Positions 4,313 through 45,754 of a DNA stretch of 64,000 nt are shown one piece after another. A program made the position numbers and the translations under genes. Positions within the stretch are counted from its first letter, which is position 1. Each line of letters opens with the position of its first letter. The notes beneath the pieces were generated by a model, which saw only the letters and a program-made list of their open reading frames with translations, was not told where the DNA came from and searched no databases. This stretch comes from Oscillospiraceae bacterium (GTDB lineage: Bacteria; Bacillota; Clostridia; Oscillospirales; Acutalibacteraceae). The stretch is from contig CADBBT010000003.1 in assembly GCA_902792985.1 (NCBI GenBank), positions 62,001 to 126,000 of the forward strand, written 5' to 3'.

Positions 4313-6649
4313 TCAATAGTGTGCTTCGCCGCATTCGCAGTACTGATGAATGTGGAACAAACGATAGAAGAACCGCACGATCGGCCAGATGAGCTTGAGG
4401 ATCGGGTTGCTCGTATTGTGGCACATATGGGTGCACGGCTCAATCTTGATGCTGTAGCCGCAGTCGTCGCAGACTTTGTATTCATGCTTGGTATAGACCG
4501 CATTGTCCGTGAGCATCTGCTTTGTGAAGTGATGATCCGCCATCGTGTACTGGCCGCAGGCGCAGTAAACGCGGTGCTGCTTGTCGTTGCCGTTGACCAA
4601 TGTGCAGCGCAGTGTAAAATCATGCGCGTGCGTCGTGTCTTTGGCAATGCGGACGGTCAGATCGCTCTTGATCTTCGTAATGCGGAACGCACCCGCCAGA
4701 CCGGTATCTTCAAAGCCTTTGATATTTTTGTAGCTGCCTTCGGTCACCGTAACGCTGAACACATCGGCGGGGTTGTCCGACACGACCCTGAAATTGACCT
4801 GGCCGCCGTCCTTGGTGGGCAGCCCTGTATCCGCATCGACGGAAACCGTGGACATCGTCTCTGTCGGCGTCACATAAAGATCCTGTCCCGGGTAAACCAG
4901 CACACGCAGTCCGCTGTCGCAGTTGAAGTTGACCCGGTAGCCCTCCTGGGTTTCCGTGATCTTGTCCAAACGCACCGTCACGTCAAGGTCGGCACTGACG
5001 CCGGTCAGCCGGTAGTCGCCGTTGCCGAGCTCTTCCAGCGCGGTATAGCCGTTTGCCGGAGAGACCGTCACCTCAACCGTGGTCTTTTTCTTCGCGTCCA
5101 CATGGAAGGTCACACTGCCGCCGTTCTTCGTCAGCGCGCCGGCTTCATTGACACTGTAGGCCGCTTCGGCAGCGGCAGCATTGCCGGAAACGTCCGGTGT
5201 CGGATAAGCGGACACTTTTGCGCCGTCGCGGCACAGGAAGGCCACACGGTAGGCGTCGGCGCCTTTTTCATGAATATTCACGCCGAAATACGCGTCAAGA
5301 TCGGCCACATGTGCTCTGGCAAAATCCATGATGCGCGCATAGGTGTTGACGTCGCGGCTCGGAGCGTCCGGCCAGCGGTTCGCTTCCGCCTGATAGATGA
5401 GATCGGGGATCGTCGCTTTGAACGCATTGAACTGACGCTCGATGTTGGAAAGCGAAAGCACATCCTGCCGCAGCTCGACATAGCGGGCCTTGATCTCAGC
5501 GGAATAATTGTCCAGCAGCTTTTTATAAAGGTTGTTGCGCGGTTCGGGGCGATAGACCTTCGTGACGGAGATATCCTCAAATTCGCCGTTCCATTTCATG
5601 CCCCAGGTGCCGTCCATATCATAGGCGGAGGGGATGAACTTCGTGCCGTCATAAGACAGCCAGAGGATGTTCTTGGCATGGTTGTCATCCGCGCGAATGA
5701 AAAACATATACAGCATGTAGTCGATGCAACGGTCCACATCGGTGTACTGCCCGATCGTATCGCGCAGTTCCTGTCCGTCGTGCGAGAGCAGATAGATGAT
5801 GAAGTTGTTGAACGCTTCGCCGAGCCAGGCGGTGCCCTCTTCGGTATCTTCCGTGGAACAGTATTCCAGATCGAAGCCGTTCTCCTCAGATTCCAGGTCG
5901 GTCGTGTCCTGCATCGGCTCCCAGAGGGAGGTCGGGTTGGTGTACCAATCGGCGCCGAGCACAGCCTGATGGATCGTCTCGTCATCCATATCGAAGATCC
6001 AGTGATCCTTCGGCATATTGAACGTGTACAGACCGAGGAAATCACCGTTATGATACAGCAGGATCGGGAAGCCGTCGATCGCGCCGCCGTTAAGCAGCGG
6101 GTCCACTTCGTCGTTGATGCCGCGGGAGTGGACGATCTCACCGAACAGACGCGAGGAAACGATGTTGCGCGCCTGCGTGGTATCGACCCAGTTGGCTTTC
6201 AGGCAATATTTGCTCTGGCGGCCCCAGTCCCGGTTGATGAGGACCTTGTTCTTGGAGCCGCTCTCCTGCACAAACTGCAGGGAGTAGTTTTTCTTGGCAT
6301 AGCGAATGGAGGTGAAGCCCTGGATCTTCAGCGTGGCAAAGCTGTCAAACGAAAGATCCGCGGAGCTGTAGCTCGTTTTGACCAGCACCTTCGTATCCTT
6401 GGAGATGCCGTCAAGCGAGCCTTCGATGTTCATGATGGGCATACCGACGTCCTTGTAGGTAACGGGCGCCTGATAGGTTTGGCCGCAAGTGGTGCAGCGG
6501 AACACGCCGCAGAATTTTGTGGAGAGACCGGACTCCGTGCGCAAAGACTGCAGCACGCCCTCGTGTTCATGCGCGCCAAAGGCGCCGGTAAGCGGGCAGA
6601 CGGAAAGCAGCATCAGGAGTGCAAGAAACAGGCTGAGTGTCTTTTTCAT
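4313..6649 (-). CDS. Secreted CotH-kinase-fold protein with Cys/His C-terminal tail
   Basis: 778 residues from ATG 6649, which follows AAAGGAGATTT; upstream in-frame codons lack a signal-peptide context. A Sec signal peptide (KKTLSLFLALLMLLSVCPL) is followed by a CotH kinase domain (about residues 60-440) with hallmarks such as LKIQGFTSIRYAKKNYSLQF, RADDNHAKNILW and YDMDGTWG. CotH proteins are atypical protein kinases of spore coats; secreted CotH relatives also occur in cellulosome-type bacteria. Two beta-rich repeats follow (YRVAFLCRDGAKV and YRVNFNCDSGLRV), then a Cys-rich segment and a terminal tail with C-x3-C-H, a Trp/Phe-rich helix and a final CECGEAHY. Secretion and fold are well supported; substrate unknown. 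Confidence 0.88.
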   Translation of the reverse strand: MKKTLSLFLALLMLLSVCPLTGAFGAHEHEGVLQSLRTESGLSTKFCGVFRCTTCGQTYQAPVTYKDVGMPIMNIEGSLDGISKDTKVLVKTSYSSADLSFDSFATLKIQGFTSIRYAKKNYSLQFVQESGSKNKVLINRDWGRQSKYCLKANWVDTTQARNIVSSRLFGEIVHSRGINDEVDPLLNGGAIDGFPILLYHNGDFLGLYTFNMPKDHWIFDMDDETIHQAVLGADWYTNPTSLWEPMQDTTDLESEENGFDLEYCSTEDTEEGTAWLGEAFNNFIIYLLSHDGQELRDTIGQYTDVDRCIDYMLYMFFIRADDNHAKNILWLSYDGTKFIPSAYDMDGTWGMKWNGEFEDISVTKVYRPEPRNNLYKKLLDNYSAEIKARYVELRQDVLSLSNIERQFNAFKATIPDLIYQAEANRWPDAPSRDVNTYARIMDFARAHVADLDAYFGVNIHEKGADAYRVAFLCRDGAKVSAYPTPDVSGNAAAAEAAYSVNEAGALTKNGGSVTFHVDAKKKTTVEVTVSPANGYTALEELGNGDYRLTGVSADLDVTVRLDKITETQEGYRVNFNCDSGLRVLVYPGQDLYVTPTETMSTVSVDADTGLPTKDGGQVNFRVVSDNPADVFSVTVTEGSYKNIKGFEDTGLAGAFRITKIKSDLTVRIAKDTTHAHDFTLRCTLVNGNDKQHRVYCACGQYTMADHHFTKQMLTDNAVYTKHEYKVCDDCGYSIKIEPCTHMCHNTSNPILKLIWPIVRFFYRLFHIHQYCECGEAHY

Positions 6650-6690
6650 GGGGAAATCTCCTTTCTTTTGTGGCATATTTACTCTTTTAA

Positions 6691-6719
6691 AGTATAACAC
6701 ACCTTTTCCGCGCTTTCAA
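6691..6719 (-). promoter_or_regulatory. Promoter for the CotH-like gene
   Basis: On the minus strand TTGAAA (plus 6714-6719), a 17-bp spacer and TATACT (plus AGTATA, 6691-6696), about 42 bp upstream of the ATG at 6649. Confidence 0.7.
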
Positions 6720-6782
6720 TGAACGTATCTACCAAAAAATCCTTGAAAAATTATGGAAGTTGATGGATATGCGCCTTGCTGC

Positions 6783-6811
6783 TTGCATCCCGGCGCAGAA
6801 TTTGCTATAAT
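6783..6811 (+). promoter_or_regulatory. Promoter for the GH25 gene
   Basis: TTGCAT at 6783-6788, 17-bp spacer, perfect TATAAT at 6806-6811 with an extended TGC. It is divergent from the CotH promoter. Confidence 0.7.
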
Positions 6812-6859
6812 GCAGTCGTTATCATTCCGGTTTTCCGATCAAAGCGAGGAGGTTTTCAT

Positions 6860-7894
6860 ATGAAAAAAGCAACGCGCGTCCTGTCCCTTCTGTTGAGTAT
6901 GCTGGTGCTGCTTTCCACCGTGCCGGTCTTTGCGGCAACCGCGCCGCCGTACTGCGGCGTTGACATTTCCCGCTGGCAGGGAACCGTGGATTGGAAAAAG
7001 GTAAAGGACAACGGCGTGGATTTCGCGATCCTGCGCTGCTTTGCTAAAAGCAAAGACACGACCTTTGACACAAACTATGCCGGTGCCGCCGCACAGGGCA
7101 TCCCCGTGGGCGCGTATGTGTATATGTATGCAACAAGTGCGGAAGCTGCCGCCGCGGAGGCACAGAACGCCGTTGCGGCGCTCGACGGACGCGCGCTGAC
7201 ACTGCCGCTGTTTCTCGATGTTGAAGACAGCAAGGTGCTTGCGCTCAGCAAAACAACGCTGCTGTCGCTGGTGCTCTCGGAGCTGCAGATCTTTGAAAAC
7301 GCGGGATACAAAGCCGGAATTTATACCTCGCAAAGTCAGGCAAAGAACTATAACACCCCGGCGCTGTCCGGCTATGCGCGATGGATTGCAAAATGGTCGT
7401 GCTACACGACGGACGCAAACCCGAAAAAATACACCTTTGCCGATCAGGACCCGAACAAAAATGCCCCTGCGTGCGACCTCTGGCAGTTTTCCAACGGCGG
7501 CAACGGCAGCATATACGGATGTGCCTCCACCTATGTCGATCTCAACTACTGCTACACCGATTACCTGAAAGCGGCGCAGTCTGAAGAACCGCCGGTGCAC
7601 GAACACACCTTTGCCGAAACGCAGGTGATCGCGCCGACCTGCACCGAAAACGGGCTGCTCGTGCAAACCTGCGCGACCTGCGGCGAAACGGTCACAACGC
7701 CCGACGCGCCTGCGCTCGGCCACACCGCACCGGATGAAAACGGCTGCTGCACAAGGTGCGGCGCCATGGTGGAAAGTGTGGATCTTCCGCAGTCCCCCGC
7801 TGTCGGCATCTGTCCGCTGTGCGGCGAACGTCACACCGGCCTTTTTGGTATTTTTCTGCTGATTTTGCACACGATTCTCGCTTTGTTCCGCTGA
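6860..7894 (+). CDS. Secreted GH25 muramidase with zinc-ribbon-like C-terminal tail
   Basis: 344 residues from ATG 6860, placed by AGGAGG at about 6848-6853. A signal peptide (about residues 1-25) precedes a glycoside hydrolase family 25 domain (about 30-240). D35 in GVDISRWQG and the D120-V-E122 pair in LFLDVED are the catalytic positions of this lysozyme family, which cuts MurNAc-GlcNAc bonds of peptidoglycan. Then come Cys-pair motifs (CTENG.LVQTCATCG, GCCTRCG) and a terminal tail CPLCGERHTG-LFG followed by a hydrophobic helix ending LHTILALFR. The same kind of tail ends the repeat protein near 20 kb and the pectate-lyase-like protein near 44 kb. Probably wall remodelling or attack on other cells. 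Confidence 0.93.
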   Translation: MKKATRVLSLLLSMLVLLSTVPVFAATAPPYCGVDISRWQGTVDWKKVKDNGVDFAILRCFAKSKDTTFDTNYAGAAAQGIPVGAYVYMYATSAEAAAAEAQNAVAALDGRALTLPLFLDVEDSKVLALSKTTLLSLVLSELQIFENAGYKAGIYTSQSQAKNYNTPALSGYARWIAKWSCYTTDANPKKYTFADQDPNKNAPACDLWQFSNGGNGSIYGCASTYVDLNYCYTDYLKAAQSEEPPVHEHTFAETQVIAPTCTENGLLVQTCATCGETVTTPDAPALGHTAPDENGCCTRCGAMVESVDLPQSPAVGICPLCGERHTGLFGIFLLILHTILALFR

Positions 7895-8019: not shown

Positions 8020-9249
8020 ATGAAAAAAGTATTATCCGTTCTCCTCAGCGTTCTGATGCTGTTCTCCGCTGCAACCGTTGCGTTCGCAGCCAGAGAGCTT
8101 GCGCCGATGATCAAGGTGGACGAAACGACCGGCCAGCAGACGCTGAAATTCGGCGACGACGGCAAGTTCAAGATCATGCAGATCAACGACACGCAGGACA
8201 CCGATACCATGCACAAGCGCACGGAGGAATTCATCCGCGCCGCGGTCGCCGCTGAAAAGCCCGACCTCGTTGTCATCCCCGGCGACGTCTGCAACGATAT
8301 TTTCATCGGTGCGAACACCAAGCGCGTCAAGCAGTGCCTGCGCAACCTCGGCTCCCTTCTGAGCGAGCTGAAGGTCCCGTTCGCCTACACGCCGGGCAAC
8401 CATGACCACGACAAAGACGAGATGGTCTCTCCCGCAGAACAGATGGCTGTCTTTGAAGAGTTCGCCTATAACATCCACAACATCAGCACCCCGGACGATC
8501 CGGGCTCCTATAACATCCCCATCCTGAGCAGCGACGGCAGCCGCATGGCGCTGAACGTGTACATGATCGACTCGCAGAACAAAGACGGCCTTGCCAACGG
8601 CTACACCGGCTGCAAGCCCGAAACGACTGCCTGGTATGTTGAAAAGAGCAACGAGCTCAAAGAGCTCAACGGCGGCGAAGTGGTTCCCTCTGTGGTCTAT
8701 CAGCACGTCCCCGTCAAGGAAATCTATCAGTGCCTGGAGCAGGTCGACAAAAAGGAAGCCAACAACGCCATCTGGAGTCTGAACGACTATAAGTGGTATA
8801 AGGAAGTTGAAGAAAAGATGTACGTCGATGAGACGCGCATGATCAAGCAGGACAACTACATCGGCGAAGCTCCCTGCTCTGAAGTGTTCGACACCAAATC
8901 CGGCGAATATGAAGCCTGGGTACAGCAGGGCGATGTGATGGGCGCGTTCTTTGCGCACGACCACGTCAACCACTTCATGATGCAGACCGACGACGGCATC
9001 ATCCTCGGCTACAACGGCGGCACCGGCTTTGCAGCCTACGGCCGCGGCGGCCACCGCTCCATCCGCATCTATGAGTTCGATGAAAACGATGTCCAGAACT
9101 TCACGATCGACTCCGTCTACTATGATGAGCTCACCGGTCACAACTTCAAGTTCTATCCCTCCGACATCATGTCCACCGCCATTTTCGGCGATGTGATCCG
9201 TTTCTTCCTGCGTCTGGTGTTCATCACCCCGTGGAAGGGCAGCAGATAA
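8020..9249 (+). CDS. Secreted calcineurin-like metallophosphoesterase
   Basis: 409 residues with a signal peptide (MKKVLSVLLSVLMLFSAAT) and a metallophosphoesterase domain from about residue 45. The metal-site motifs are in order: INDTQD, GDVCND, GNHDHD, a later HVPVKE, and AHDHVN. The first motif has Gln where many family members have His (D-x-H), a variant known from a secreted phosphatase subgroup. The substrate could be a phosphodiester, nucleotide or teichoic-acid type polymer; the sequence does not say. The C-terminus (about 20 residues, DVIRFFLRLVF) would form an amphipathic helix, as in several other secreted proteins here. It stands alone between two intrinsic terminators. Confidence 0.9.
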   Translation: MKKVLSVLLSVLMLFSAATVAFAARELAPMIKVDETTGQQTLKFGDDGKFKIMQINDTQDTDTMHKRTEEFIRAAVAAEKPDLVVIPGDVCNDIFIGANTKRVKQCLRNLGSLLSELKVPFAYTPGNHDHDKDEMVSPAEQMAVFEEFAYNIHNISTPDDPGSYNIPILSSDGSRMALNVYMIDSQNKDGLANGYTGCKPETTAWYVEKSNELKELNGGEVVPSVVYQHVPVKEIYQCLEQVDKKEANNAIWSLNDYKWYKEVEEKMYVDETRMIKQDNYIGEAPCSEVFDTKSGEYEAWVQQGDVMGAFFAHDHVNHFMMQTDDGIILGYNGGTGFAAYGRGGHRSIRIYEFDENDVQNFTIDSVYYDELTGHNFKFYPSDIMSTAIFGDVIRFFLRLVFITPWKGSR

Positions 9250-14983: not shown

Positions 14984-16594
14984 TCAGCTTTGCACTGTCG
15001 ACTCCCGATGGAGTAAATGTCTGATCCAGGCTTTCAGTGCTTCCAAAAATGTTTGAAAAGCGGTGCGCAGATCGGGATGCACATACTCCGTGTGCATATT
15101 CTCCGCCGTCATCGGAACCCAGTACTCCACATCGTTTTCCCAGAAGTGGGTCATGAACTGCGGAAATTCGGGGTCGTCGTTGACGGTGAGCTGCCGGTCG
15201 GCGCGGGTCATGCGCAAAACAAGATCATAGATGCGGCCGGGGAAATCGTTGTGGCGGATGTTCTTGACAAACCACGTCACCTCCGGGAACCACGCGGTCG
15301 ATGCGTCGATGATCTTATCCGGTGAAATGCTGCTGTCAAAGCCCGCGCGTTTGCGTGCGGCGATGTAAAGAGGGCTGAGCGTTTCGCCGTAAACGGCGCC
15401 GGTCGCGCCGAAGGACTGCGCCGTCATGGTGATCTTGTCGTCGGCCTGCGCACGCGCGGACGCGGTGAAGGGAATGATCTGAAAACCGTATTTTGCAAGG
15501 ATACACAGCTTCACGCCGTCGTTTTTCATCCGCGTCAGAATGTCTTTCATCGGCCGGCGCACACGCGCGTCATACGCGTCGATCTTTTCGATCAGTTTCG
15601 CGTATCTGGCGGCGTCGTTTTTGAACAGAAAGGCTTTTGCGTCTGCAAAGTCCTGCGGCGCAACCATGCTCCAGTAGCCGGCGGAGGTGGCAAAGCTCGC
15701 CTTCAGCACACGCGGCAATACATCATCCCACATGCGTTTCATCAGCAGATCGGAAAGTTTCGACGGGAGGCCGAGCGCACCGAGCTGCTGACCGAGTTCC
15801 AGCGCGGCAAACAGCAGCGCCTTGGTTTCCGGGTCAACCGTCCCGTCGTCTTCCGGCGGCGCATCCGGGTCGTCATAGCGGTGCTTTTCGTCTAAAAAGT
15901 TGTTGATGCTCGCAAGGTCGATTTGAACTTTTCCGGAGAACAGCTCGCTGAAAATCGTCGTGCCAAGCGCGGCGGAGCTGTAGGTGAAAAAGGTGTCGAT
16001 GTCCTGCCAGCCGTATTTTTCAAAATAGGTCAGCGCCATCTCGCTGCCCATACAGCGGCTGAGGACAGCCACCCTGCGGTGACCGGTCACGCGCCTTACA
16101 CATTCGATATATGCGTGCAGATCGTCCGCGATCTCAAACGGATCCTTGCGTGCATCGTAGATGTACACATAGGAATACACGTTGTCATATCTATGGTCGT
16201 CGCGCATCGTCTCCGGCGACCAGGTCCATTCCACGCCGGAGGCGTTGTCCGGCAGACTGCCGTCGTCCTTGCAGACAAAGTCCTTATATTTTTCTTCGAA
16301 CGCCGCGGCGATCTCGTCGCAGAATGCGTCAAAACTGCCGAGCATCAGCTTTGCGGCGTTGCGTTTGACGCTTTCGCTGATGAGTCCCTTGATCCAGTCG
16401 CTGTCATAGCCGCTGATGACCTTGCGGTTTTCTGCGCGCGGATCGTCAAAAATATCCTGCCGCCCGAAAATATAGATCAGCGGCATGTGTTCGCAATCGC
16501 AGACGTTTTCGTCCTCCTGTGCAAACACCGTCAGCGCGCCGCAGCAGGAAAGCAGCATCAGCAAGGCAAGAAAAACAGAAAGCATTCGTTTCAT
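14984..16594 (-). CDS. Secreted alpha/beta-hydrolase-like protein with Cys at the nucleophile position (paralogue 1)
   Basis: 536 residues with a signal peptide (MKRMLSVFLALLMLLSCC) behind TTAGGGGGGAA. The fold is inferred from paralogues at 26 kb and 62 kb: a repeated YIYDARKDPFEIADDLHAYIE block, then VAVLSRCMGSEMALTYF, in which C181 takes the place of Ser in the A-H-S-M-G elbow of the 62-kb paralogue. A strongly shared block near the C-terminus, SPDKIIDASTAWFPEVTWF plus KNIRHND, likely supplies the catalytic His. The C-terminal 25 residues form an amphipathic helix. The family looks LCAT/lipase-like; Cys nucleophiles occur in dienelactone hydrolases. Substrate unknown, and activity loss is possible. 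Confidence 0.78.
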   Translation of the reverse strand: MKRMLSVFLALLMLLSCCGALTVFAQEDENVCDCEHMPLIYIFGRQDIFDDPRAENRKVISGYDSDWIKGLISESVKRNAAKLMLGSFDAFCDEIAAAFEEKYKDFVCKDDGSLPDNASGVEWTWSPETMRDDHRYDNVYSYVYIYDARKDPFEIADDLHAYIECVRRVTGHRRVAVLSRCMGSEMALTYFEKYGWQDIDTFFTYSSAALGTTIFSELFSGKVQIDLASINNFLDEKHRYDDPDAPPEDDGTVDPETKALLFAALELGQQLGALGLPSKLSDLLMKRMWDDVLPRVLKASFATSAGYWSMVAPQDFADAKAFLFKNDAARYAKLIEKIDAYDARVRRPMKDILTRMKNDGVKLCILAKYGFQIIPFTASARAQADDKITMTAQSFGATGAVYGETLSPLYIAARKRAGFDSSISPDKIIDASTAWFPEVTWFVKNIRHNDFPGRIYDLVLRMTRADRQLTVNDDPEFPQFMTHFWENDVEYWVPMTAENMHTEYVHPDLRTAFQTFLEALKAWIRHLLHRESTVQS

Positions 16595-19937: not shown

Positions 19938-20301
19938 ATCAACAGCTCCTTTTCATAAGATCCTTTTTATATTAAGCCATTTCCCTGAAAAAATCAAGTC
20001 CGTTTTTGTAAAAAAGCAATTATTTTGCGCCAAACAGCGCAAAGAGAATGCGATGGATGAACTGAACGAGCCAACCGAACGCGCCGGTGTGCGTCTGTCC
20101 GCAATAGGGACAATCCCCGCTTTGCGCCTCCCGCAGACGTTCACCGCAACGGTCGCAAACCCCGTCATCGTTGCTGTCTGTGTGCGGCGCTCTGGAAAGG
20201 ACACGTTCCTCTGCCGCACCGCAGACGCTGCACGCAACACGGGAGACGCCGTCCTCGCTGCAGGTAGCAGACTTCACGAGCATTGCCGCGCCCCAACTGT
20301 G

Positions 20302-23024
20302 GTCGGCAGTTTGCGTTTCGCTGCACCGGGTACAGGTGCGAATGTGGTTTTCCCCGTTGTTTGTCCAGTCACCAAAGCTGTGTCCGAGCGGCGCAATCTC
20401 CTTGCCTGCTTCAAGCACTGCGCCGCAGCCGTCGCAGACTTTGTCGCCAGTGTAGCCCGCCGTGGTGCATGTTTCTTCTGCTGCGTTCGCTATGTGCGTG
20501 CCGTAATCAGCGTGATTCGTCGAGTCCTTCGCGGTCGGTTCCGTTTTTGTTGCGCCGCAAACGGAACAGGTGTATTTCACGCTGCCTTCTGTCGCGCACG
20601 TTGCGGCGCTAAGCGTTTCGCCGGTGTTCCAATTGTGATCAGCGCTCTGCGTTTCGCTGCAACGGGTGCAGGTGCGAATGTGGTTTTCCCCGTTGTTTGT
20701 CCAGTCACCGAAATGTGGTTTTCCCCGTTGTTTGTCCAGTCACCGAAGCTGTGTCCAAGCGGGGCAATCTCCTTGCCTGCTTCAAGCACTGCGCCGCAGC
20801 CGTCACAGACTTTGTCGCCGGTATACCCGACCGTCAAGCAGCCGGCGTCAACTTTGTTCGCTGTGTGCGTGCCATAGTCAGCGTGATTCTTCGAGTCCTT
20901 CGCGGTCGGTTCCGTTTTTGTTGCGCTGCAAACGGAACAAGTGTGTCTCACGCTGCCTTCTGTCGCACACGTTGCGGCGCTGAGCGTTTCGCCGGTGTTC
21001 CAATTGTGGTCGGCGCTCTGCGTTTCGCTGCACCGGGTGCAGGTGCGGATATGGTTTTCCCCGTTGTTTGTCCAGTCACCGAAGCTGTGTCCAAGCGGGG
21101 CAATTTCCTTGCCTGCTTCAAGCACTGCGCCGCAGCCGTCACAGACCGTATCGCCGGTGTAACCGGCAGTCGTGCAGCCGGCGTCGACTTTGTTCGCTGT
21201 GTACGTGCCGTAGTCGGCGTGATTCGTCGGGTCCTTCGCGGTCGGTTCCGTTTTTGTTGTGCCGCAAACGGAACAAGTGTATTTCACGCTGCCTTCTGTT
21301 GTACACGTTGCGGTGCTGAGCGTTTCGCCGGTGTTCCAGTTGTGGTCAGCGGTTTGCGTTTCACTGCAACGGGTGCAGGTGCGGATATGGTTTCCCCCGT
21401 TGTTTTTCCAGTCACCGAAGCTGTGACCGAGCGGCGCGATCTCCTTGCCTGCTTCGATCACTGCGCCGCAGCCGTCACAGACCGTGTCGCCGGTGTAACC
21501 GGCAGTCGTGCAGCCGGCGTCAACTTTGTTCGCTATATGCGTGCCATAATCTGCATGATTCGTCGGGTCAAGGTCGGTGTCCACGGTTTTCGTCGCAATG
21601 CACTGTGTGCAAGCGTACTTCATCTGCCCCGCTGTAGTACAGGTTGCGGCGGTGATCAGTGTGCCCTCACCCCAAGTGTGCGCAGCGAACTCTTCTTCCC
21701 CGCAGCGCTCGCAGGTGCGGATGTGGTCGTCGCCGTTGTCCGCCCAGTCGTCGAAATTGTGTCCAAGCGGCACAATTTCTTTGCCTGCTTCAAGCACTGC
21801 GCCGCAGCCGTCGCAGACTTTGTCGCCGGTGTAACCGGCAGTCGTGCAGCCCGCGTCGACTTTGTTTGCTGTGTGCGTACCGTAGTCAGCGTGATTCATC
21901 GGGTCGACCGCAGTGTCCACTGTTTTCGTTGCGATGCATTGCGTGCAAGCGTACTTCATCTGCCCCGCTGTAGTGCAAGTCGCAGCAGTGATCGGTGTAC
22001 CGTCATCCCATGTATGCGCGGCGAACTCCTCCTCGCCGCAACGTTCACAGGTGCGGATATGGTCGTCGCCGTTGTCCGCCCATTCATCAAAATTGTGGCC
22101 GCGCGGCGCGATTTTGCTGCCCGCTTCGATCACTGCGCCGCAGCCGTCGCAGACTTTGTCGCCGGTATACCCGGCCGTCAAGCAGCCGGCGTCCGCTGCG
22201 TTCACAATGTGCGTGCCGTAGTCAGCGTGATTCGTCGGGTCGACCGCGGTGTCCACGGTTTTTGTTGCAATGCATTGCGTGCAAGCGTACTTCATCTGCC
22301 CCGCTGTAGTGCAGGTCGCCACAGTGATCGGTGTGCCCTCATTCCATGTATGCGCGGCGTATTCTTCTTCCCCGCAGCGCTCACAGGTGCGGATATGGTC
22401 GTCGCCGTTGTCCGCCCAGTCGTCAAAACTGTGTCCGAGCGGCGCAATTTCTTTGCCCGCTTCGATCACCGCGCCGCAGCCGTCACAGACTTTGTCGCCG
22501 GTGTAACCGGCAGCCGTGCAGCCCGCGTCAACTTTGTTCGCTGTGTGCGTGCCGTAATCAGCGTGATTCGTCGGGTCGATCTCGGTATTCACGGTTTTCG
22601 TTGCAATGCACTGCGTGCACTTATATTTTATCTGCCCCGGTGTGGTACAAGTTGCCACGGTGATCGGTGTACCGTCATCCCATGTGTGTGCGGCGAACTC
22701 CTCCTCGCCGCAGCGCTCACAGGTGCGGATATGGTCGTCGCCGTTGTCTGCCCACTCGTCAAAACTGTGTCCAAGCGGCGCAATTTCCCTGCCTGCTTCG
22801 ATCACTGCGCCGCAGCCGTCACAGACTTTGTCGCCGGTGTAACCGGCAGTCGTGCAACCTGCGTCGACTTTGTTCGCTGTGTGCGTGCCGTAGTCGGCGT
22901 GATTCGTCGGGTCTACTGCGGTGTCCTCTGTTTTCGTCGCGCCGCATACGGAACAGGTCACAAGCGCGCTGCCCGTTTCCGTGCAAGTCGCGCGCGTAAG
23001 ATTCTTATGCAGGTCCCAAACATG
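20302..23024 (-). repeat. Eight tandem 336-bp coding repeats
   Basis: Units start at His-(V/T/N)-W and span 112 residues each; the total length, 2723 bp, equals 8 x 336 plus the 35-bp duplication. Units 2-5 share CTTxGQxKYxCTQC, units 6-8 share NTGETLSxATC, suggesting two rounds of amplification. Confidence 0.85.
20678..20747. repeat. 35-bp perfect tandem duplication causing a frameshift
   Basis: The 35 bp at 20678-20712 are repeated exactly at 20713-20747 (start ATGTGGTTTTCCCCGTTG). 35 is not a multiple of 3, so the repeat-protein frame is broken. Neighbouring repeat units have only one copy. Confidence 0.9.
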
Positions 23025-24568
23025 CGCCTGCGTGATCCGGTGTGTCGGGTCGTTGGCACAGATGCGCGCGTGCGTGTCGGCGTCCACGTTCGTCCATGCG
23101 CCGTAAGCGTGTCCCAGCGCTGCAAGCAAATGCGTCTCGGTCAACGGACAGGTAACGCAGCGCAGTTCGGTCACACCCGTCGTTTCACAGCTTGCCGGTG
23201 TTTGCCGCACAACCACACTGATGTCATGCAGCTGCAGCGGCAGCTCATGTTCCGTGCAGTATGCCGCTTCGGCGGAACCCGCAAACGCGTGGATCGTCAC
23301 ACCATCCGGCGACGCGGACGGCTGCGTCTGGTCTTCCGCCAGGCAGTTCAGACTGTCATAATCCGTGATCTCTTCTCCGGTGATCTCGGACAGACGCGCC
23401 AGCAGCGCATCCTCTTCCAGCATCAGCGCATCACATTCCTGCCACTGCCGCAGTGCGTAAAACAGCGCTTTCAGCGTTGGTGCGTCATAGCCTTCGGCCG
23501 GTTCAAAGTGTAAAAAGCCGGAAGCTGCGCTCACCGCCGTCATGCTTGCGCTGCAGATGTCCGTGAGCGCATACAGATGTGCCAGCGCGTCGGGTGCGAT
23601 CTCCGTCAGCGACGCGGGCAGCAAAAGCTGCCGCAGACTGCCGTTGTCGGGGAAAGCGCCGGCCGCAATCGTTTCCACGCCTGCAGGCACAGCGTAAAGC
23701 GCTTCCTCCCTTGCCGGCGGATAAAAATGCAAACTCGTTTTTGCTTTGTTGAACAACACGCCGTCCAGATCGGAAAACTGCGCGTTTTCTTCGCTGACCG
23801 TAATCGTTTGCAGCGCGCCGTAACGCGGCAGCGCCGTTTCGGAAAGCGTTGTCAGCCCGCTGCCCAGTGAAAGGGTCTGCAGAGCAAAACAGGTGTCCAG
23901 CGCGTGCGGACCGATCTCTGTCACTGTGTCCGGAATGTCCAGCGCCGTGAGATGAAAACAGCCCTGCAGCGCGTTTTCACCGAGCGATTGCAGTGACGCG
24001 GACAAAGAAAGCGTTTGCAGAAAACCGGCAAGGTCAAAAGCGCGCGGCGCAACAGATGTCACCGTTGCGGGCAGCGTATAACTTGCATCTGTTCTGCCGC
24101 AGGGATACTGCAGCAGTTTTGTCTGCGCCTTGTCAAACAGCGCGCCGGCCGCATCGGCGGAAAAACAGGCGTTTTCTGACGCCACACGGATTTCAGTCAG
24201 TGCGCTGCAGCCTGTCAGCGCAAAGGCGCCGATCGCTGTCACGCTTGCGGGGATCGACAGCGTTTCCAACGCTGTGCAATACGCGAACGCATCCGTACAC
24301 AGACTCTCCACGCCGGGTTCCAGCACCACACGGTAAATCTGATCGGCATCATCCACCCAGGGATTGTCCGTCATCTCTCCGCTGCCGAACACACGCAGCG
24401 TTCCGTCCTCTGTCAGCGACCATTGCAGCGCAGGGCCGCAATCGCCGCCGTCAAGTTCCGTTTCCGTTCCAAAAACAAACGACACCGACAGAAAAACCAT
24501 CAGTGCCGAAAGCAGAACGGAAGCCAAGGGTTTGAAATGTTTCATCTTCTTCGCCTCTATTCTTATTC

Positions 24569-25291
24569 TTATGGTGTAATGACCGAAACGCTCAGCACAT
24601 CCTCGCGGCTGCTGAAGAATGTCAGGATCTCATGTGTGCTCAACTGATATGACGCGCGCAGCGAGATATCATATTTTGCCTGTCCGTCCTGGATCTTGGA
24701 CATTTTCGTGTCCACCAGATGGATGTCCCATGCTTTGAGCTGCGCGTCAAGCGTGTCTTGAAACTCTTTGCTGCTGATCACCGTAAAAGAGATTTGAAAC
24801 AGCGGCATGGATTCCGAACCGATCTTGAATTTGTGCAGCAGATACTGGAACAGGATGATCATGACGGTGGTAAACACACCCATAATATACATACCGCCGC
24901 CGACGGCAAGGCCGATACCGGCCGTCGCCCAAAGGCCCGCAGCTGTGGTCAGACCGCTGACGGAGCCGTTGTTTTTAAAGATCACGCCCGCGCCGAGAAA
25001 GCTGATGCCGCTGACGACCTGCGCCGCAATGCGCGCAGGATCAGCGTCGCGCGTCCCGCCGGAAAAACCGCCGATTGCCGTTGAAATATCGGCAAACGCA
25101 TATTTGGAAACGATCATCATCAGCGCCGCCGCACAGCAGACGATGATGTGGGTACGCAGACCCGCGCCCTTGAATCGGCGGGTGCGCTCATAACCGATCG
25201 CCGCACCGCAGCCCATCGCGAGGATGATGCGCAGCGCAAAGTCCAGAAGCTGCAGCCAAGTAAATTGTTCATGCATAAAGATGGAATACAT
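24569..25291 (-). CDS. MgtC/SapB family membrane protein
   Basis: 240 residues. The N-terminal half has the MgtC layout: four to five helices with the signature GCGAAIGYERTRRFKGAGLRTH and LGAGVIFKNNGSVSGLTTAAGLWATAGIGLAVG. The C-terminal part (about 155-240) is a cytoplasmic ACT-like domain (FQISFTVISSKEFQDTLDAQL). MgtC proteins help cells cope with low Mg2+ and may influence membrane potential or ATP synthase; they are not proven Mg2+ channels. No magnesium riboswitch is recognisable upstream. It is a single gene with a downstream neighbour on the same strand only after the LRR gene's start, so it is probably alone. Confidence 0.92.
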   Translation of the reverse strand: MYSIFMHEQFTWLQLLDFALRIILAMGCGAAIGYERTRRFKGAGLRTHIIVCCAAALMMIVSKYAFADISTAIGGFSGGTRDADPARIAAQVVSGISFLGAGVIFKNNGSVSGLTTAAGLWATAGIGLAVGGGMYIMGVFTTVMIILFQYLLHKFKIGSESMPLFQISFTVISSKEFQDTLDAQLKAWDIHLVDTKMSKIQDGQAKYDISLRASYQLSTHEILTFFSSREDVLSVSVITP

Positions 25292-26274: not shown

Positions 26275-27924
26275 ATGAAAAAATGGATTTCTCTTTTCCT
26301 GGCTGTTCTCGTCATCTTCACGGCTTGTTTGCCCGCCTTTGCGGCAACAGACGTCGGCGGCTTTGCCTATCCGACCGTTTATATCCGCGGCCGTGTTGCG
26401 TATCTCTATAATCATGTCGGCACAGAGCAGGAAAGCGAACTTTATGACATCTATGACAATAAAGTTTTCTCCCCCGAAGTGCCAGATATCAAGGCCTATG
26501 CCATTGAACAGGCAAAGGTTCTGCTGCCGAAATTTGCAAAAGCCCTTTTGACGCAAAACTACGAACCGTGGGCAAGTGAATTCTCGTGCATTCTGGCGCC
26601 GATCTATCGTGATTTTGTGCTCGATCAAAACGGCAATCCCCGCAACGGCAGCGGTGCGAAAACGAACTGGGATGCGCTGACAGATAAAGCGGACGCCAAC
26701 GGTACCTATCCCATCCGCAACTATGACGATCTCGACGAGTTGTTTTATGACTTTTTGTGGGACTGGCGCTGCAGCCCGCTGGATGTTGCCGATTCGCTGC
26801 GTGCATTTATTGACCGTGTGCTCGCCGTTACGGGAAAGAAAAAAGTCAACCTGGTCAGCCGCTGCGAGGGAAGCTGCGTTGCCATGGCATACCTTTATAA
26901 ATACGGCAACGACAATAAAATTGCCAACAACGTGCTGCTCGGCTCCAGCGCCAACGGCGTCGGCTATGCCAGCGGCTTGTTTTCCGGAAAATTCAGGTTG
27001 GACGCCGATGCGCTCAACCGCTATATCGGCCGCAATTTTGCAACCGGCAGCGACAAGAGCTTCGGCGACGATCTCGTTGCCGACGAAGTGATCCGCACCT
27101 ATTTGCGCGAATCGCTGTGCCTGCTTGCAAAATCACACAGCATGGATCTTTTGGAAAAGCTTTTGCTGCGGCTGATCAACAAGGTCGGCCCGATGGTTTA
27201 TCCCGGCCTGCTGATGAGCTCCTACGGCACCTGCCCCGGCTATTGGGCGATGGTGCGCGACGAAGACTATGAAGATGCAAAGGCGCTTGCGGGACTGAAC
27301 GACAACCCGGAATGGGCAAATTTTGTAAAAAAAATAGACGAATATCACGGGCAGGTGCAGAAAAGAGCAGGAAAGATTTTGAAAACGCAGCAGGAAAAGG
27401 GCGTTCCGTCCGCCGTACTTGTCAAATACGGTGCAGAAACCATGCCCATTGTGACAGCCGCCAACGAGATCAGTGACGGCACAACCCTGGTCAAAGACGC
27501 CTCTTTCGGCGCGGTGACCGCAAAGATCGATCACCCGTTTGACGATGCCTATGTTGCTGCGGCAGTCAAAGCCGGCAAGGGCGATCTGATTTCGCCGGAC
27601 CGCATGATCAACGCGTCCACCTGCGCGCTGCCGCAGAGCACCTGGTTCATCAAATATCTCAGCCACGATAACTGGGGATCTGTTTTGGTGGATATTTTTG
27701 GCGAATTCATCCGCTCCGACGGCAAGCTGACAGTCGGTCAAAAGGGCTTTGAACGCTTTGAGGTTTTTCAGCCGAAAACAGGCACTGCCGTCAAAATGAC
27801 CGAGGAAAACGCAAACAGTCAGTCGGATTATTATGCGAAAGATCTTTTCGGTGCGTTCCGGCGCTGGCTTTCCGCGCTGCAGGCGCTGCTAAAATCGCTG
27901 CCGAAAATTTTGTTCAAAAGATAA
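26275..27924 (+). CDS. Secreted alpha/beta-hydrolase-like protein with Cys at the nucleophile position (paralogue 2)
   Basis: 549 residues, signal peptide at 1-22, start preceded by TGGAGGTTTGC. It shares the whole architecture of the proteins at 15 kb and 62 kb: an early YPTVYIRGRVAYLY strand, a FLWDWRCSPLDVADSLRAF block, VNLVSRCEGSCVAMAYLYKYG with C197 at the nucleophile position, GTCPGYWAMV, and the conserved SPDRMINASTCALPQSTWF with KYLSHDN. The C-terminus is a Leu/Trp-rich amphipathic helix. Probably an esterase or acyltransferase relative whose Ser is replaced by Cys, or a catalytically dead binder. Upstream of it are the chaperone gene and 114 bp without features; a hairpin follows. 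Confidence 0.78.
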   Translation: MKKWISLFLAVLVIFTACLPAFAATDVGGFAYPTVYIRGRVAYLYNHVGTEQESELYDIYDNKVFSPEVPDIKAYAIEQAKVLLPKFAKALLTQNYEPWASEFSCILAPIYRDFVLDQNGNPRNGSGAKTNWDALTDKADANGTYPIRNYDDLDELFYDFLWDWRCSPLDVADSLRAFIDRVLAVTGKKKVNLVSRCEGSCVAMAYLYKYGNDNKIANNVLLGSSANGVGYASGLFSGKFRLDADALNRYIGRNFATGSDKSFGDDLVADEVIRTYLRESLCLLAKSHSMDLLEKLLLRLINKVGPMVYPGLLMSSYGTCPGYWAMVRDEDYEDAKALAGLNDNPEWANFVKKIDEYHGQVQKRAGKILKTQQEKGVPSAVLVKYGAETMPIVTAANEISDGTTLVKDASFGAVTAKIDHPFDDAYVAAAVKAGKGDLISPDRMINASTCALPQSTWFIKYLSHDNWGSVLVDIFGEFIRSDGKLTVGQKGFERFEVFQPKTGTAVKMTEENANSQSDYYAKDLFGAFRRWLSALQALLKSLPKILFKR

Positions 27925-35588: not shown

Positions 35589-36614
35589 ATGAAACTGACA
35601 AAAAAACTGATGGCCGTTCTGCTCGCGGCGCTGATGATCGTCACCGTGATCCCGTTTGCGTTTGCGGCCACCTTCACCGGCACACTGGAAAACGGCGTGC
35701 TCACCGTTTCCGGCTCCGGTGCCATGGGCAGCTTTTCCGAAGGCGCACCCTGGGCGGAGTTTGCCAATGACACAACCTCCATCGTGATCTCCGACGGCAT
35801 CACCTCTGTCGGCGCCTATGCGTTCAAAAACTTCAAAAAAGCAACGAGCGTCACCCTGCCCGCCAGCGTGAAAGATATTGACGCTTACGCGTTTTTGAAC
35901 TGCGCGTCCCTGCAAAGCATTGTCCTGCCCGCTGAGATGACCGCGGTCAAGACCGGCACATTCAGCGGCTGCACATCGCTCGACGGCGTTATCATTCCCG
36001 AAAACGTGGCGGAGATCCAAAGCTACGCGTTCAACCACACCGGTCTGACAGAGATCGTGCTGCCGGCGGCTGTGACAAGCGTTGCGAAATTCGCGTTCAC
36101 AAACTGCGATTCGCTCAAGAAGATCACGATCAAAAACAACAAGTGCTCCATCGTCAGCGGTGCATTCCCGCCGCCGACCCCCTCCACTTCCGGCGAAGCG
36201 CCGATTACCTTCTATGCTGCCTACAGATCCAACGGCTACAACTTTGCCGTTGCCAACCAGTATGCCTATGAAGTGATCCCCGACGAGGACAAGGTGGACT
36301 ACGGCACTCCGGATACTGTGCAGGAAGTGGTCACCGTTTCCGAACAGACCCTCAAGGAAACCAAATTCGGCGCCTTCATCCGCCGTCTGCTTGAACTGCT
36401 CGGCATCGAAAAGAAAGAGCAGGCGCCCGAAACGGAAAACGGCACCGGTAGCGGTTCCGGCTCCGGCGGCGCTGAAAGCGAAAACAACAGCACCATGACC
36501 ATCACCGGCCCCGGCGCGGAAATCGGCAAGTTCCTGATGAAAACGTCGTTCGCAGACGTCATCCTGTCGCTGCGTGAGGCGCTGCAAGGTTTGCTTCCCT
36601 CCCTCAAAATCTGA
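35589..36614 (+). CDS. Secreted BspA-type leucine-rich repeat protein
   Basis: 341 residues with a signal peptide (MKLTKKLMAVLLAALMIVT) and about six LRR_5 repeats (about residues 55-190), for example FLNCASLQSIVLPAEMTAV and FSGCTSLDGVIIPENVAEI. A C-terminal region (about 200-341) contains TFYAAYRSNGYNFAVANQYA, an FIRRLLELLG helix, a Gly/Ser/Glu linker and a final hydrophobic helix (SLREALQGLLPSL). The C-terminal helix resembles the ends of other secreted proteins here. Own promoter; a hairpin that also overlaps the next promoter follows. Probable surface-binding protein. Confidence 0.82.
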   Translation: MKLTKKLMAVLLAALMIVTVIPFAFAATFTGTLENGVLTVSGSGAMGSFSEGAPWAEFANDTTSIVISDGITSVGAYAFKNFKKATSVTLPASVKDIDAYAFLNCASLQSIVLPAEMTAVKTGTFSGCTSLDGVIIPENVAEIQSYAFNHTGLTEIVLPAAVTSVAKFAFTNCDSLKKITIKNNKCSIVSGAFPPPTPSTSGEAPITFYAAYRSNGYNFAVANQYAYEVIPDEDKVDYGTPDTVQEVVTVSEQTLKETKFGAFIRRLLELLGIEKKEQAPETENGTGSGSGSGGAESENNSTMTITGPGAEIGKFLMKTSFADVILSLREALQGLLPSLKI

Positions 36615-44115: not shown

Positions 44116-45470
44116 TTATTTGTGCAGTCCGAACAGCGCTAAAATGTCATGGAAAAGCTGAATGAAAAAGCCGAACAGTCCCGTATGGGTCCCGCCGCAA
44201 TATTTGCAGCTGCCGCGCTGCGGCTCCACTTCCTGCGGCTCAAACGTTCCTCAGGCTGCGGCAGCTTTTCCGTTGTGATGTCCGTCAGCTCTTCGGTTCC
44301 GTTTTCGTCTGCGTAATTCTTTCCGCAGGAAATGCAGTGATAATGCGCCACCATGCCCTTTGCTTCAACGGTTGCTTTTTGTTCCGGAACATAGGTCAGG
44401 CTGTGCACAATGATCCCCTCGTCCACAAACGTGCGATAGGTACGGTTTGCGTTCAGCCGCGCCTCATTGACCAGCAGCCGGATGAATGCGCCGCTTCCGG
44501 TCGTGGGGCCGTCATAGAGCGTATTGTCCGTATCATCTCTGAAGTCCATGCGCATATTCGTTACAGTGGCGTTGAAGTTGCTGTTGCCGACTTTGAAGCC
44601 GGTGCAGTTGCCGCCCTCGCCGCTCCACCAGAACGCGGTACAGTTGTCATAGATGCTGCGGCCGCTGCCGGTGATCTTGAACGCAGTCTGGAACTGATCG
44701 CTGTAACAGTGGGTGAAAAGGTTGTTGGTGCTCTCCTCAACAAAGCCGCAGGAGCCGTTGTACTGGTTCCAGGCGATGTTGAACAGCGGGTGGATATTGG
44801 TCAGGCTGTTGCCGTTGGAATGGACGATCACGCCTGTGCGCACACCGGCAATGCGGGCGTTGGTAACGGTGTTGTCATGTCCTTCGATCTTGATCCCGAC
44901 GGAGTTTGCCGTGCCGGCTCCAAAGATGTTGATGTCTCTGATATCCGCGTCGGAAGAACCGGAGTTTGCGCCGTACTTGATATGCAGACCCACAATGGTG
45001 TTTTTGATGGACGTGTTCTGCACCTTGGTTTCCCGGCCGGAATCGATGCTCACGCCGTTTGCGACCTTGTTTCCGTCAAGGACGCCGCCGGTCAGGGAGT
45101 AGTTGCTGCCCACCTTTTTTATCGTATTATAAGGATCCTTGCCGCCCAGCGCGATCAGCGCGCCGCCTGTGAATCCGCTGGTTGCGCGAATGACCGCATA
45201 GTTTGTCAACTGCAGATCAACGCTTTTGGCGGGATCGGCAGGCGTGCGCAGCGGATGGGATAAAAGGTAGACGCCGTCGGGGAAATAAATGGTGCGGTTG
45301 GGGTTGGCGTCGATGACGGCCTGCAGCGCGTCCGCAACGTCTTTGCCGGTATCTGCGGCAACATAGTCCGTGACGCAAACAGTGCCGGGCATTGCAGAAG
45401 CAAACGCGCATGTCGGCACGATCATGGTAAGGACCAGAAGCACGGAGAGGATCGTTTTCAGCTTTGACAT
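44116..45470 (-). pseudogene. Secreted pectate-lyase-superfamily (beta-helix) protein, frameshifted before its C-terminal tail
   Basis: Start ATG 45470 (SD AAGGA 8 nt before). Signal peptide, then a right-handed parallel beta-helix: ADTGKDVADALQAVIDANPN and RTIYFPDGVYLLSHPLRTP are typical of pectate lyase superfamily 3, followed by repeated N-T-S/N-x-V turns. These proteins degrade or bind polysaccharides. In the original frame the protein ends at 44139 with unrelated residues (RRKWSRSAAAANI). In the -1 frame, from about 44245-44255, a coherent end appears: a GTFEPQEVEP linker, then CKYCGGTHTG-LFG and a hydrophobic helix to a stop at 44116. So a single base was lost near CCTGAGGAACG, either truly or in assembly. 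Both possibilities must be tested. Confidence 0.82.
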
Positions 45471-45754
45471 GGAGATCATCCTTTCTTTTTTCTCAAAAAC
45501 ATTATAACACACCGGGCAAAAATGTCAACAAAAAAAAGAAAAACGACCCGACTGGATCGCTTCTCTGTGGCGCGCTGCGAGGGACGCACCCGCTGCGGCG
45601 ACGCCTTGCGTGTGCCGTCCTCGGCGGCTGATTTTGCCGCCTGCGGACTTCGACGCGGCGAATCTTCCACCGGAAGATTCGCTCTTCGCGTCTCACCCTC
45701 TCAGGGTTCGAGTCCCTCGCGTATTTACCGCAAACGCATTCCCTTTTGATAAAA

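Follow-up and report, generated by a model that had tools for sequence, protein, structure and literature searches.

A short Cys/His and helix tail ends dozens of unrelated exported proteins of a gut Oscillospiraceae bacterium and points to an unrecognized means of surface retention

What could a short tail of conserved cysteines and histidines be doing at the end of a secreted muramidase? Gut and rumen Clostridia meet their surroundings through exported proteins, and those described here have no annotated anchoring route. The initial annotation of the window (the whole stretch of 64,000 nucleotides analyzed here) had proposed that a GH25 muramidase and two unrelated proteins share such an end, with a zinc-like site followed by a hydrophobic helix, and that it is a dedicated sorting, anchoring or export tail. 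One short Cys/His and helix tail, hereafter tail A, indeed ends dozens of unrelated exported proteins of this gut bacterium. The annotation had missed 30 further copies of it in the genome, as well as a second tail (tail B) on the neighboring CotH-domain protein.

The three proteins of the window are a sound starting point. The DNA form of C-x2-C-G-x2-H-x-G matched four times, against 0.04 matches expected in this pattern search. The C codons of the three sites noted before lie at 7811 (+), 20112 (-) and 44208 (-), and the fourth match, at 2494 (+), falls in a frame broken by stops. An alignment of the three ends has 15 invariant columns, and the spacing formula proposed at the outset fits all of them. 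The corresponding features are the following:

6860..7894, + strand: GH25 muramidase gene (Pfam PF01183, E 1.1e-26; ORF), ending in tail A
7811..7891, + strand: tail A of the GH25 protein, CPLCGERHTGLFGIFLLILHTILALFR-stop (motif match, alignment)
20577..24629, - strand: LRR/repeat protein, N-terminal open frame of an interrupted gene (Pfam LRR_5, E 5.9e-25)
20020..20739, - strand: second open frame of the LRR/repeat gene, with CxxC repeats and tail A (ORF reading)
20023..20112, - strand: tail A of the repeat protein, CPYCGQTHTGAFGWLVQFIHRILFALFGAK-stop (profile match, 9.8e-22)
44139..45524, - strand: N-terminal open frame, with signal peptide, of an interrupted exported protein (ORF, heuristic)
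44119..44208, - strand: tail A, CKYCGGTHTGLFGFFIQLFHDILALFGLHK-stop, inside a 44-codon open frame (motif match, profile, alignment)

The GH25 gene is read in one uninterrupted open frame (6776-7894, +) with tail A at its end, and our heuristic places a Sec-type signal peptide at the ATG at 6860 (MKKATRVLSLLLSMLVLLS...). A stricter heuristic finds a signal peptide, MKHFKPLASVLLSALMVFLSVSFVFG, on the N-terminal frame of the LRR/repeat protein. Since the tails at 20023-20112 and 44119-44208 are off-frame from the N-terminal ORFs, both genes are interrupted in the assembly; we read their pieces separately and left the sequence unmended. A relative (G110) has an intact frame of 1526 codons whose end is nearly the same as the tail at 20023-20112. 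The third tail had been placed at 44116-44208: the site stands, but 44116-44118 is the stop codon. The exported protein at 44139..45524 has no Pfam domain above the cut-off, so that "beta-helix" is the initial annotation's word alone. In both interrupted genes the frame shifts shortly before the tail (20577-20739 and 44116-44250, - strand), and further genomes of the family and genus scans likewise have short tail-bearing frames (44-115 codons). Possible causes are errors of assembly, pseudogenes, slippage within repetitive linkers or the ends of contigs.

How common is tail A? The source genome is a draft of 2.6 Mb in 90 contigs, 89% complete. A profile of the three window tails gave 30 own-genome matches at E <0.02 (those examined reached 0.018; four weaker matches had no locus), starting 26-41 residues before the stop. 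A second profile, made of those 30 tails, found 33 own-genome tails A at E up to 0.001. The three extra ones lie on contigs C36, C6 and C7; two of the four weaker matches were thereby recovered as true tails, and C9 and C41 were left out. All 33 are C-terminal. Our list of 31 own-genome tail ORFs leaves out the 44-codon frame of the window, and one of its entries, T16, was dropped as a chance pattern match. Similar ends had also been mentioned for other Oscillospirales, and tail A was found in further genomes of the genus and of the family.

The C-terminal position is a strong rule, not an absolute one. Most matches in other genomes were counted without a check of position, and where nine other genus genomes were checked, 12 of 12 tails A were C-terminal. 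Outside the genus, 22 of the 24 tails A checked (from 30 matches in five genomes) lie within 51 residues of the stop. The two others depart from this. In L105 it lies 85 residues from the stop, with about 50 more residues after it. In L110 (G087:C11:32187-52186; match 42186-42266, -) it is internal, some 320 residues before the stop, and is followed in one open frame by a phosphoesterase-like stretch; this is either a gene fusion or a use of tail A inside a protein.

The Cys/His set is the most constant part of tail A. Among the 30 profile-picked tails, C3, C6, H10 and H22 are the sole invariant columns (one row has C-x-C), and the four residues are invariant in all 26 rows of an alignment (A4) of the three window tails with 23 of the 25 loci from named relatives. 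All but two of the 33 own-genome tails have the complete set; these two (L304 and L305, on G000 contigs C6 and C7) have Asp at the second Cys position, reading C-x2-D-N-x-D-H in place of C-x2-C-G-x2-H, with the rest conserved. Four Cys/His at fixed spacing are what zinc-binding domains have, and tail A may bind a metal, most likely zinc, as the term "zinc-like site" had anticipated.

The proteins that carry tail A have little else in common. Their domains include GH25, three CHAP, Amidase_6, C39, a papain-like peptidase with a lectin-like domain, an M6 peptidase and a transglutaminase, along with LRR_5, VWA, DUF6273 and Flg_new repeats, and several have no domain at all (three later scans covered 29 proteins, two of them carrying tail B). 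Among the cargo are hydrolases of peptidoglycan, proteases and proteins of transglutaminase-like or adhesin-like type. Signal peptides were called in 55 of 62 tail-A ORFs and 38 of 38 tail-B ORFs, against 94 of 625 other ORFs, by a strict heuristic of our own rather than SignalP, with tails recognized by C-terminal patterns and a class of other ORFs that includes shadow frames and other exported proteins. Several of the seven tail-A ORFs scored without a signal peptide look interrupted or incomplete. A looser heuristic called 26 signal peptides in the list of 31 own-genome ORFs, of which that of T25 was discounted. A stretch rich in Pro, Thr and Gln precedes tail A (0.32 versus 0.15 in the body of 25 proteins), whereas tail B lacks a Pro/Thr linker (0.16 versus 0.14, 50 proteins). 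In the 80 residues before the tail, 6 of 25 proteins with tail A and 24 of 50 with tail B have a small module resembling D-x-N-x-D-G-x-C-D-x-C-G, Ca- or Zn-like in look.

The second tail is found next to the GH25 gene:

4313..6700, - strand: CotH-domain protein adjoining the GH25 gene, carrying tail B (Pfam PF08757, E 1.5e-21; ORF)
4316..4435, - strand: tail B, i.e., CTHMCH, an aromatic amphipathic helix and CECGEAHY-stop (sequence, profile)

Its general form is C-x-[C/H]-x-C-H, an amphipathic helix and C-x-C-G-x2-H-Y-stop. Two further proteins of the same genome have ends like it. Starting from a profile of all three, we arrived at 52 loci from 18 genomes (A6-profile picks from 40 regions that we chose among the matches listed), all with C-x3-C-H ... 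C-x-C-G-x2-H. The consensus is C-x-[C/H]-x-C-H-K-x-G-F...F-I-[WY]-K-I-x-R-F-F-W-K-L-F-x-I-N-x2-C-x-C-G-x2-H-Y-stop. The rows of the resulting alignment (A7) were cut out by their Cys/His pattern, and the invariance of those columns is therefore by construction. The third position was left free in the search pattern, and among 50 distinct tails it is C in 32, H in 18 and nothing else, as metal ligands might be expected to exchange. The last His is followed by Y in 46, W in 3 and F in 1; 42 of the 50 stop at this aromatic residue, with no basic cluster after the helix, and the remainder extend by 5-13 residues. The likeness between the two tails is confined to the helix (hhalign probability 50%, P 1.6e-4, 23 columns).

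The two tails alternate between genomes. Among 34 genomes of the genus, ten have 15-39 tails A and 24 have none or one, with no genome at 2-14. Tail B is present in all 34, with 1-3 copies in A-rich genomes and 1-23 in A-poor ones. The counts are inversely related (rank test p 3.8e-5, Spearman -0.73, with genomes treated as independent though they are related). In a tree of one sortase-family protein, a single gene from 33 of the 34 genomes (the A-rich G110 is absent), the nine A-rich genomes form one clade with support of 100/98. Hence, the alternation within the genus amounts to one switch. Some A-poor genomes are also poor in B, so that a genome need not rely on either tail: G112 has one of each, and G101, G123 and G111 have 3, 4 and 3 tails B, the first two of these without any A. 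A third type of tail was sought in the LRR_5 proteins of tail-poor genomes (20 regions of G101, G108, G112 and G123), and the eight ORFs that passed the filter (G101, G112, G123; L274-L289) have no Cys/His tail. Four of the eight LRR proteins end, by eye, in an Fn3-like stretch, KYYVRVRTYKTV, and the end of the window ORF 48704-50740 (-) is similar to it.

Beyond the genus the tails are sparse. Across 100 genomes of the family, nine have A or B: six have A (33, 14, 10, 4, 1 and 1 copies) and five have B (9, 5, 3, 3 and 2). The genera with 14, 10 and 4 tails A have no B, two genera with 5 and 2 tails B have no A, and G080 has one A and three B. In 291 genomes of the class we found no convincing A or B outside the family, at a lower sensitivity, since at most 25-27 candidates per genome were scored and 27 of the 33 own-genome tails A were recovered in this way. 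One weak partial match for each tail (A, E 9.6e-4; B, 8.7e-4, with internal stops) was taken as chance. A scan of named genomes with a profile of ten close tails A gave 25 loci in uncultured Ruminococcaceae, Oscillospiraceae and other Clostridia, several of them labeled rumen.

Related modules carry tail A in one species and tail B in another, judging from the sequences with tails removed. The own-genome A protein L046 and the B protein L180 of another species are 39.5% identical over 691 residues, L048 (A) and L185 (B) 38.3% over 674, and L041 (A) and L182 (B) 64% over the first 193. These matches are partly repeats and shared modules, and the identities show relatedness, not orthology.

The tails themselves are under purifying selection: pN is below pS in 83 of 89 equal-length pairs (the pairs are not independent), and in one pair of genes the tails have a pN of 0.015 and a pS of 0.478. 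We considered that the tail could be a recently copied DNA cassette and rejected this, since tails that are near-identical as protein differ at many synonymous sites; their likeness does not come from recent copying.

What could such tails be doing? We propose that tails A and B are dedicated C-terminal modules for retention in the envelope, in which a metal-clamped amphipathic helix docks and is left uncleaved. We give this reading a probability of roughly 0.4. The N-terminal signal peptide would direct the protein to Sec export, and the last 30-40 residues of the protein would then fold round a metal ion, most likely zinc. The ligands would be the C-x2-C knuckle, a loop His and a helix His in tail A, and two Cys/His half-sites flanking the helix in tail B. 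The metal would fix a short, amphipathic, aromatic-rich and basic helix, which could dock by lying flat on the outer side of the cell membrane, or else on a partner in the envelope, leaving the catalytic or adhesive module outside and the tail retained. Both tails would do the same job, with each lineage using mainly one. Metal binding, docking, its target and the lack of cleavage are all read from sequence. A folded, uncleaved docking module is favored by the amphipathic helix, by the Cys/His on both sides of the helix of tail B and by the conservation of tail B to its last residue; the tail thus probably stays on the protein.

The helix is where this proposal and its main rival diverge. The mean hydrophobic moment is 0.36 in own-genome tails A (0.18 when shuffled, n=30), 0.59 in tails B (0.25, n=49) and 0.49 in nine hand-picked tails A of other genera (0.22); the observed mean exceeded that of all 300 shuffle sets. 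Mean Kyte-Doolittle values are 1.50 in own-genome tails A, many of which end in R/K, and 0.96 in tails B. A transmembrane helix followed by a basic cluster is absent from tail B and borderline in own-genome tail A. Being fairly hydrophobic, with many R/K ends, some of the latter could span the membrane and resemble a cleavable tripartite signal. In the AF2 model of the tail of the named relative L113 (tail A, 26 sequences), the knuckle, with bridge residues 12 and 19 around it, is followed by a helix at residues 23-37 (mean pLDDT 72, pTM 0.39). The model of the window's tail B, built from one sequence, is poor (pLDDT 52); its helix spans 21-37, and residues 16 and 44 are isolated bridge residues. 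There is a hint here that, if residues 16 and 44 pair, the half-sites of tail B would be brought together. If these bind one metal, the helix cannot cross the membrane between them.

The main rival is a sorting signal that is cleaved, like PEP-CTERM, GlyGly-CTERM or MYXO-CTERM, in which a dedicated intramembrane protease or transpeptidase would read the motif, remove the helix and leave a covalent or lipid anchor. We consider it rather unlikely for the tails as a whole, and strongest for the more hydrophobic own-genome tails A. It would account for the many copies per genome, the signal peptides, the diversity of modules and the patchy distribution in the family, and many tails A have the order of motif, hydrophobic stretch and R/K. 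GlyGly-CTERM, with its rhombosortase, is likewise a short C-terminal homology domain found on diverse exported proteins, several per genome if any. MYXO-CTERM marks the C termini of 35 proteins with signal peptides in a single genome, for the most part adhesins and hydrolases. Its signature motif contains an invariant Cys; the tag also has a transmembrane helix and an Arg-rich cluster in the cytoplasm, and is cut by a protease of the CPBP family, myxosortase (PMC11980579). Tails A and B resemble it in their numbers, their diverse cargo with signal peptides and their conserved Cys, but differ in being amphipathic (with a conserved helix His in A), in having at least four conserved Cys/His and in having no candidate protease among the neighboring genes. 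PEP-CTERM, with its exosortase, is recognized by short C-terminal homology on diverse exported proteins that have an N-terminal signal peptide, with several copies in a genome if any (PMC1569441), a pattern also seen here. Like the CTERM tags, the tails are at the extreme C terminus, in many copies and on signal-peptide proteins. Unlike PEP-CTERM and GlyGly-CTERM, they have another motif, no clear transmembrane segment and two alternative forms within one clostridial family. Against cleavage we also count the invariant His within the helix of tail A, and the Cys/His that follow the helix of tail B, most often up to an H-aromatic end. The single internal copy of tail A counts equally against a cleaved signal and against a purely C-terminal module.

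The initial annotation had compared the logic of the tail to LPxTG or PEP-CTERM and had suggested a co-occurring protease or sortase-like gene. Neither idea has found support so far. Sortase (PF04203) is present in all 34 genomes of the genus, in 1-5 copies, in A-rich and A-poor ones alike, and so says nothing either way about a link to the tails. Among the neighbors of the tail loci that we examined in several genomes, no enzyme or non-tail gene of interest recurs, which also speaks against cleavage; the largest neighbor clusters, of four genomes each, are by eye a serine recombinase and a tyrosine integrase. Many tails A recall LPXTG substrates in their linker, motif, hydrophobic stretch and R/K, and these too are exported proteins of Firmicutes. 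But there is no LPXTG-like motif before the hydrophobic stretch in 30 tails A and 49 tails B, where Cys/His motifs stand instead, the sortase is present whichever tail a genome uses, and most tails B have no basic end. No CTERM model is among the NCBIfam matches of seven window proteins and of the same numbers of tails A and B.

The tails could instead bind a protein receptor or scaffold on the cell, as dockerins do, with A and B as two recognition types. We find this improbable, although tail exchange on related modules and the preference of whole lineages fit a receptor that changed specificity once. No receptor candidate emerged, and selection by a lipid surface would equally favor a conserved hydrophobic face with basic residues. 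Dockerins, and CBM37 of Ruminococcus albus, are C-terminal modules common to diverse exported enzymes, but they are larger folded domains, and Pfam finds neither at the tails. Finally, a tail for stability, metal storage or quality control, e.g., a zinc-dependent protection of the C terminus or a mark for turnover with no role in location, would suit the conservation of the Cys/His set but is very improbable, since it predicts neither the enrichment in signal peptides nor the amphipathic helix nor the lineage-wide exchange.

The retention module that we favor would be a new one. As the initial annotation had supposed, the tail has no assigned function: window proteins, tail alignments, profile searches and Foldseek gave no Pfam, NCBIfam or PDB match above the cut-off covering tail A or B, and the best Foldseek match of the tail-A model is no better than E 6.7. 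Zinc knuckle and ribbon families (DZR, the FmdE treble clef, the PaaD ribbon) have the C-x2-C-G knuckle in common with tail A. None of their Pfam matches reaches the cut-off; the ones that come with coordinates extend no further than the knuckle, and these families do not include the helix and its His. In the open full-text literature (titles and beginnings of abstracts among the matches listed, with subscription papers mostly outside) we found no paper on such a tail, and words beginning with "zinc" or "amphipathic" are absent from the accessible part of a review of Gram-positive surface display (PMC5817068).

These observations point to a mode of surface retention that has gone unrecognized. 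With 15-39 bearers in a genome, such a tail would at one stroke give much of the surface proteome an annotation. A bolder idea, tentative as it is, is that of a new bacterial surface address: two interchangeable metal-clamped amphipathic tails, A and B, would have as their reader a cognate receptor or sorting machine in the envelope, and a single change of its specificity in one clade would have re-tagged dozens of exported proteins together. The two alternative tails on related proteins provide a natural test, since the partner should differ between neighboring clades of the genus. Short metal-dependent tails would also serve as display tags.

Two observations concern the reach of such tails. 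In the searches of mobile elements, viral contigs had no relative of tail A or B, and the ten matches in plasmid records all had E of 3 or more. The sole convincing match among phage and plasmid records (E 7e-11) is a tail B on a 1235-residue signal-peptide protein (L292, PV036458.1 63160-75312; 8446-12153, +) at the end of an Oscillospirales phage record; this may be a surface protein carried by a phage, or the record may include host DNA at its edge. In the window, the proteins at 8020-9249 (+), 26275-27924 (+), 35589-36614 (+) and 14984-16594 (-) have amphipathic-looking ends without Cys/His; an example is the metallophosphoesterase adjoining the GH25 gene, with IFGDVIRFFLRLVF. These could perhaps represent a metal-free variant of the tail.
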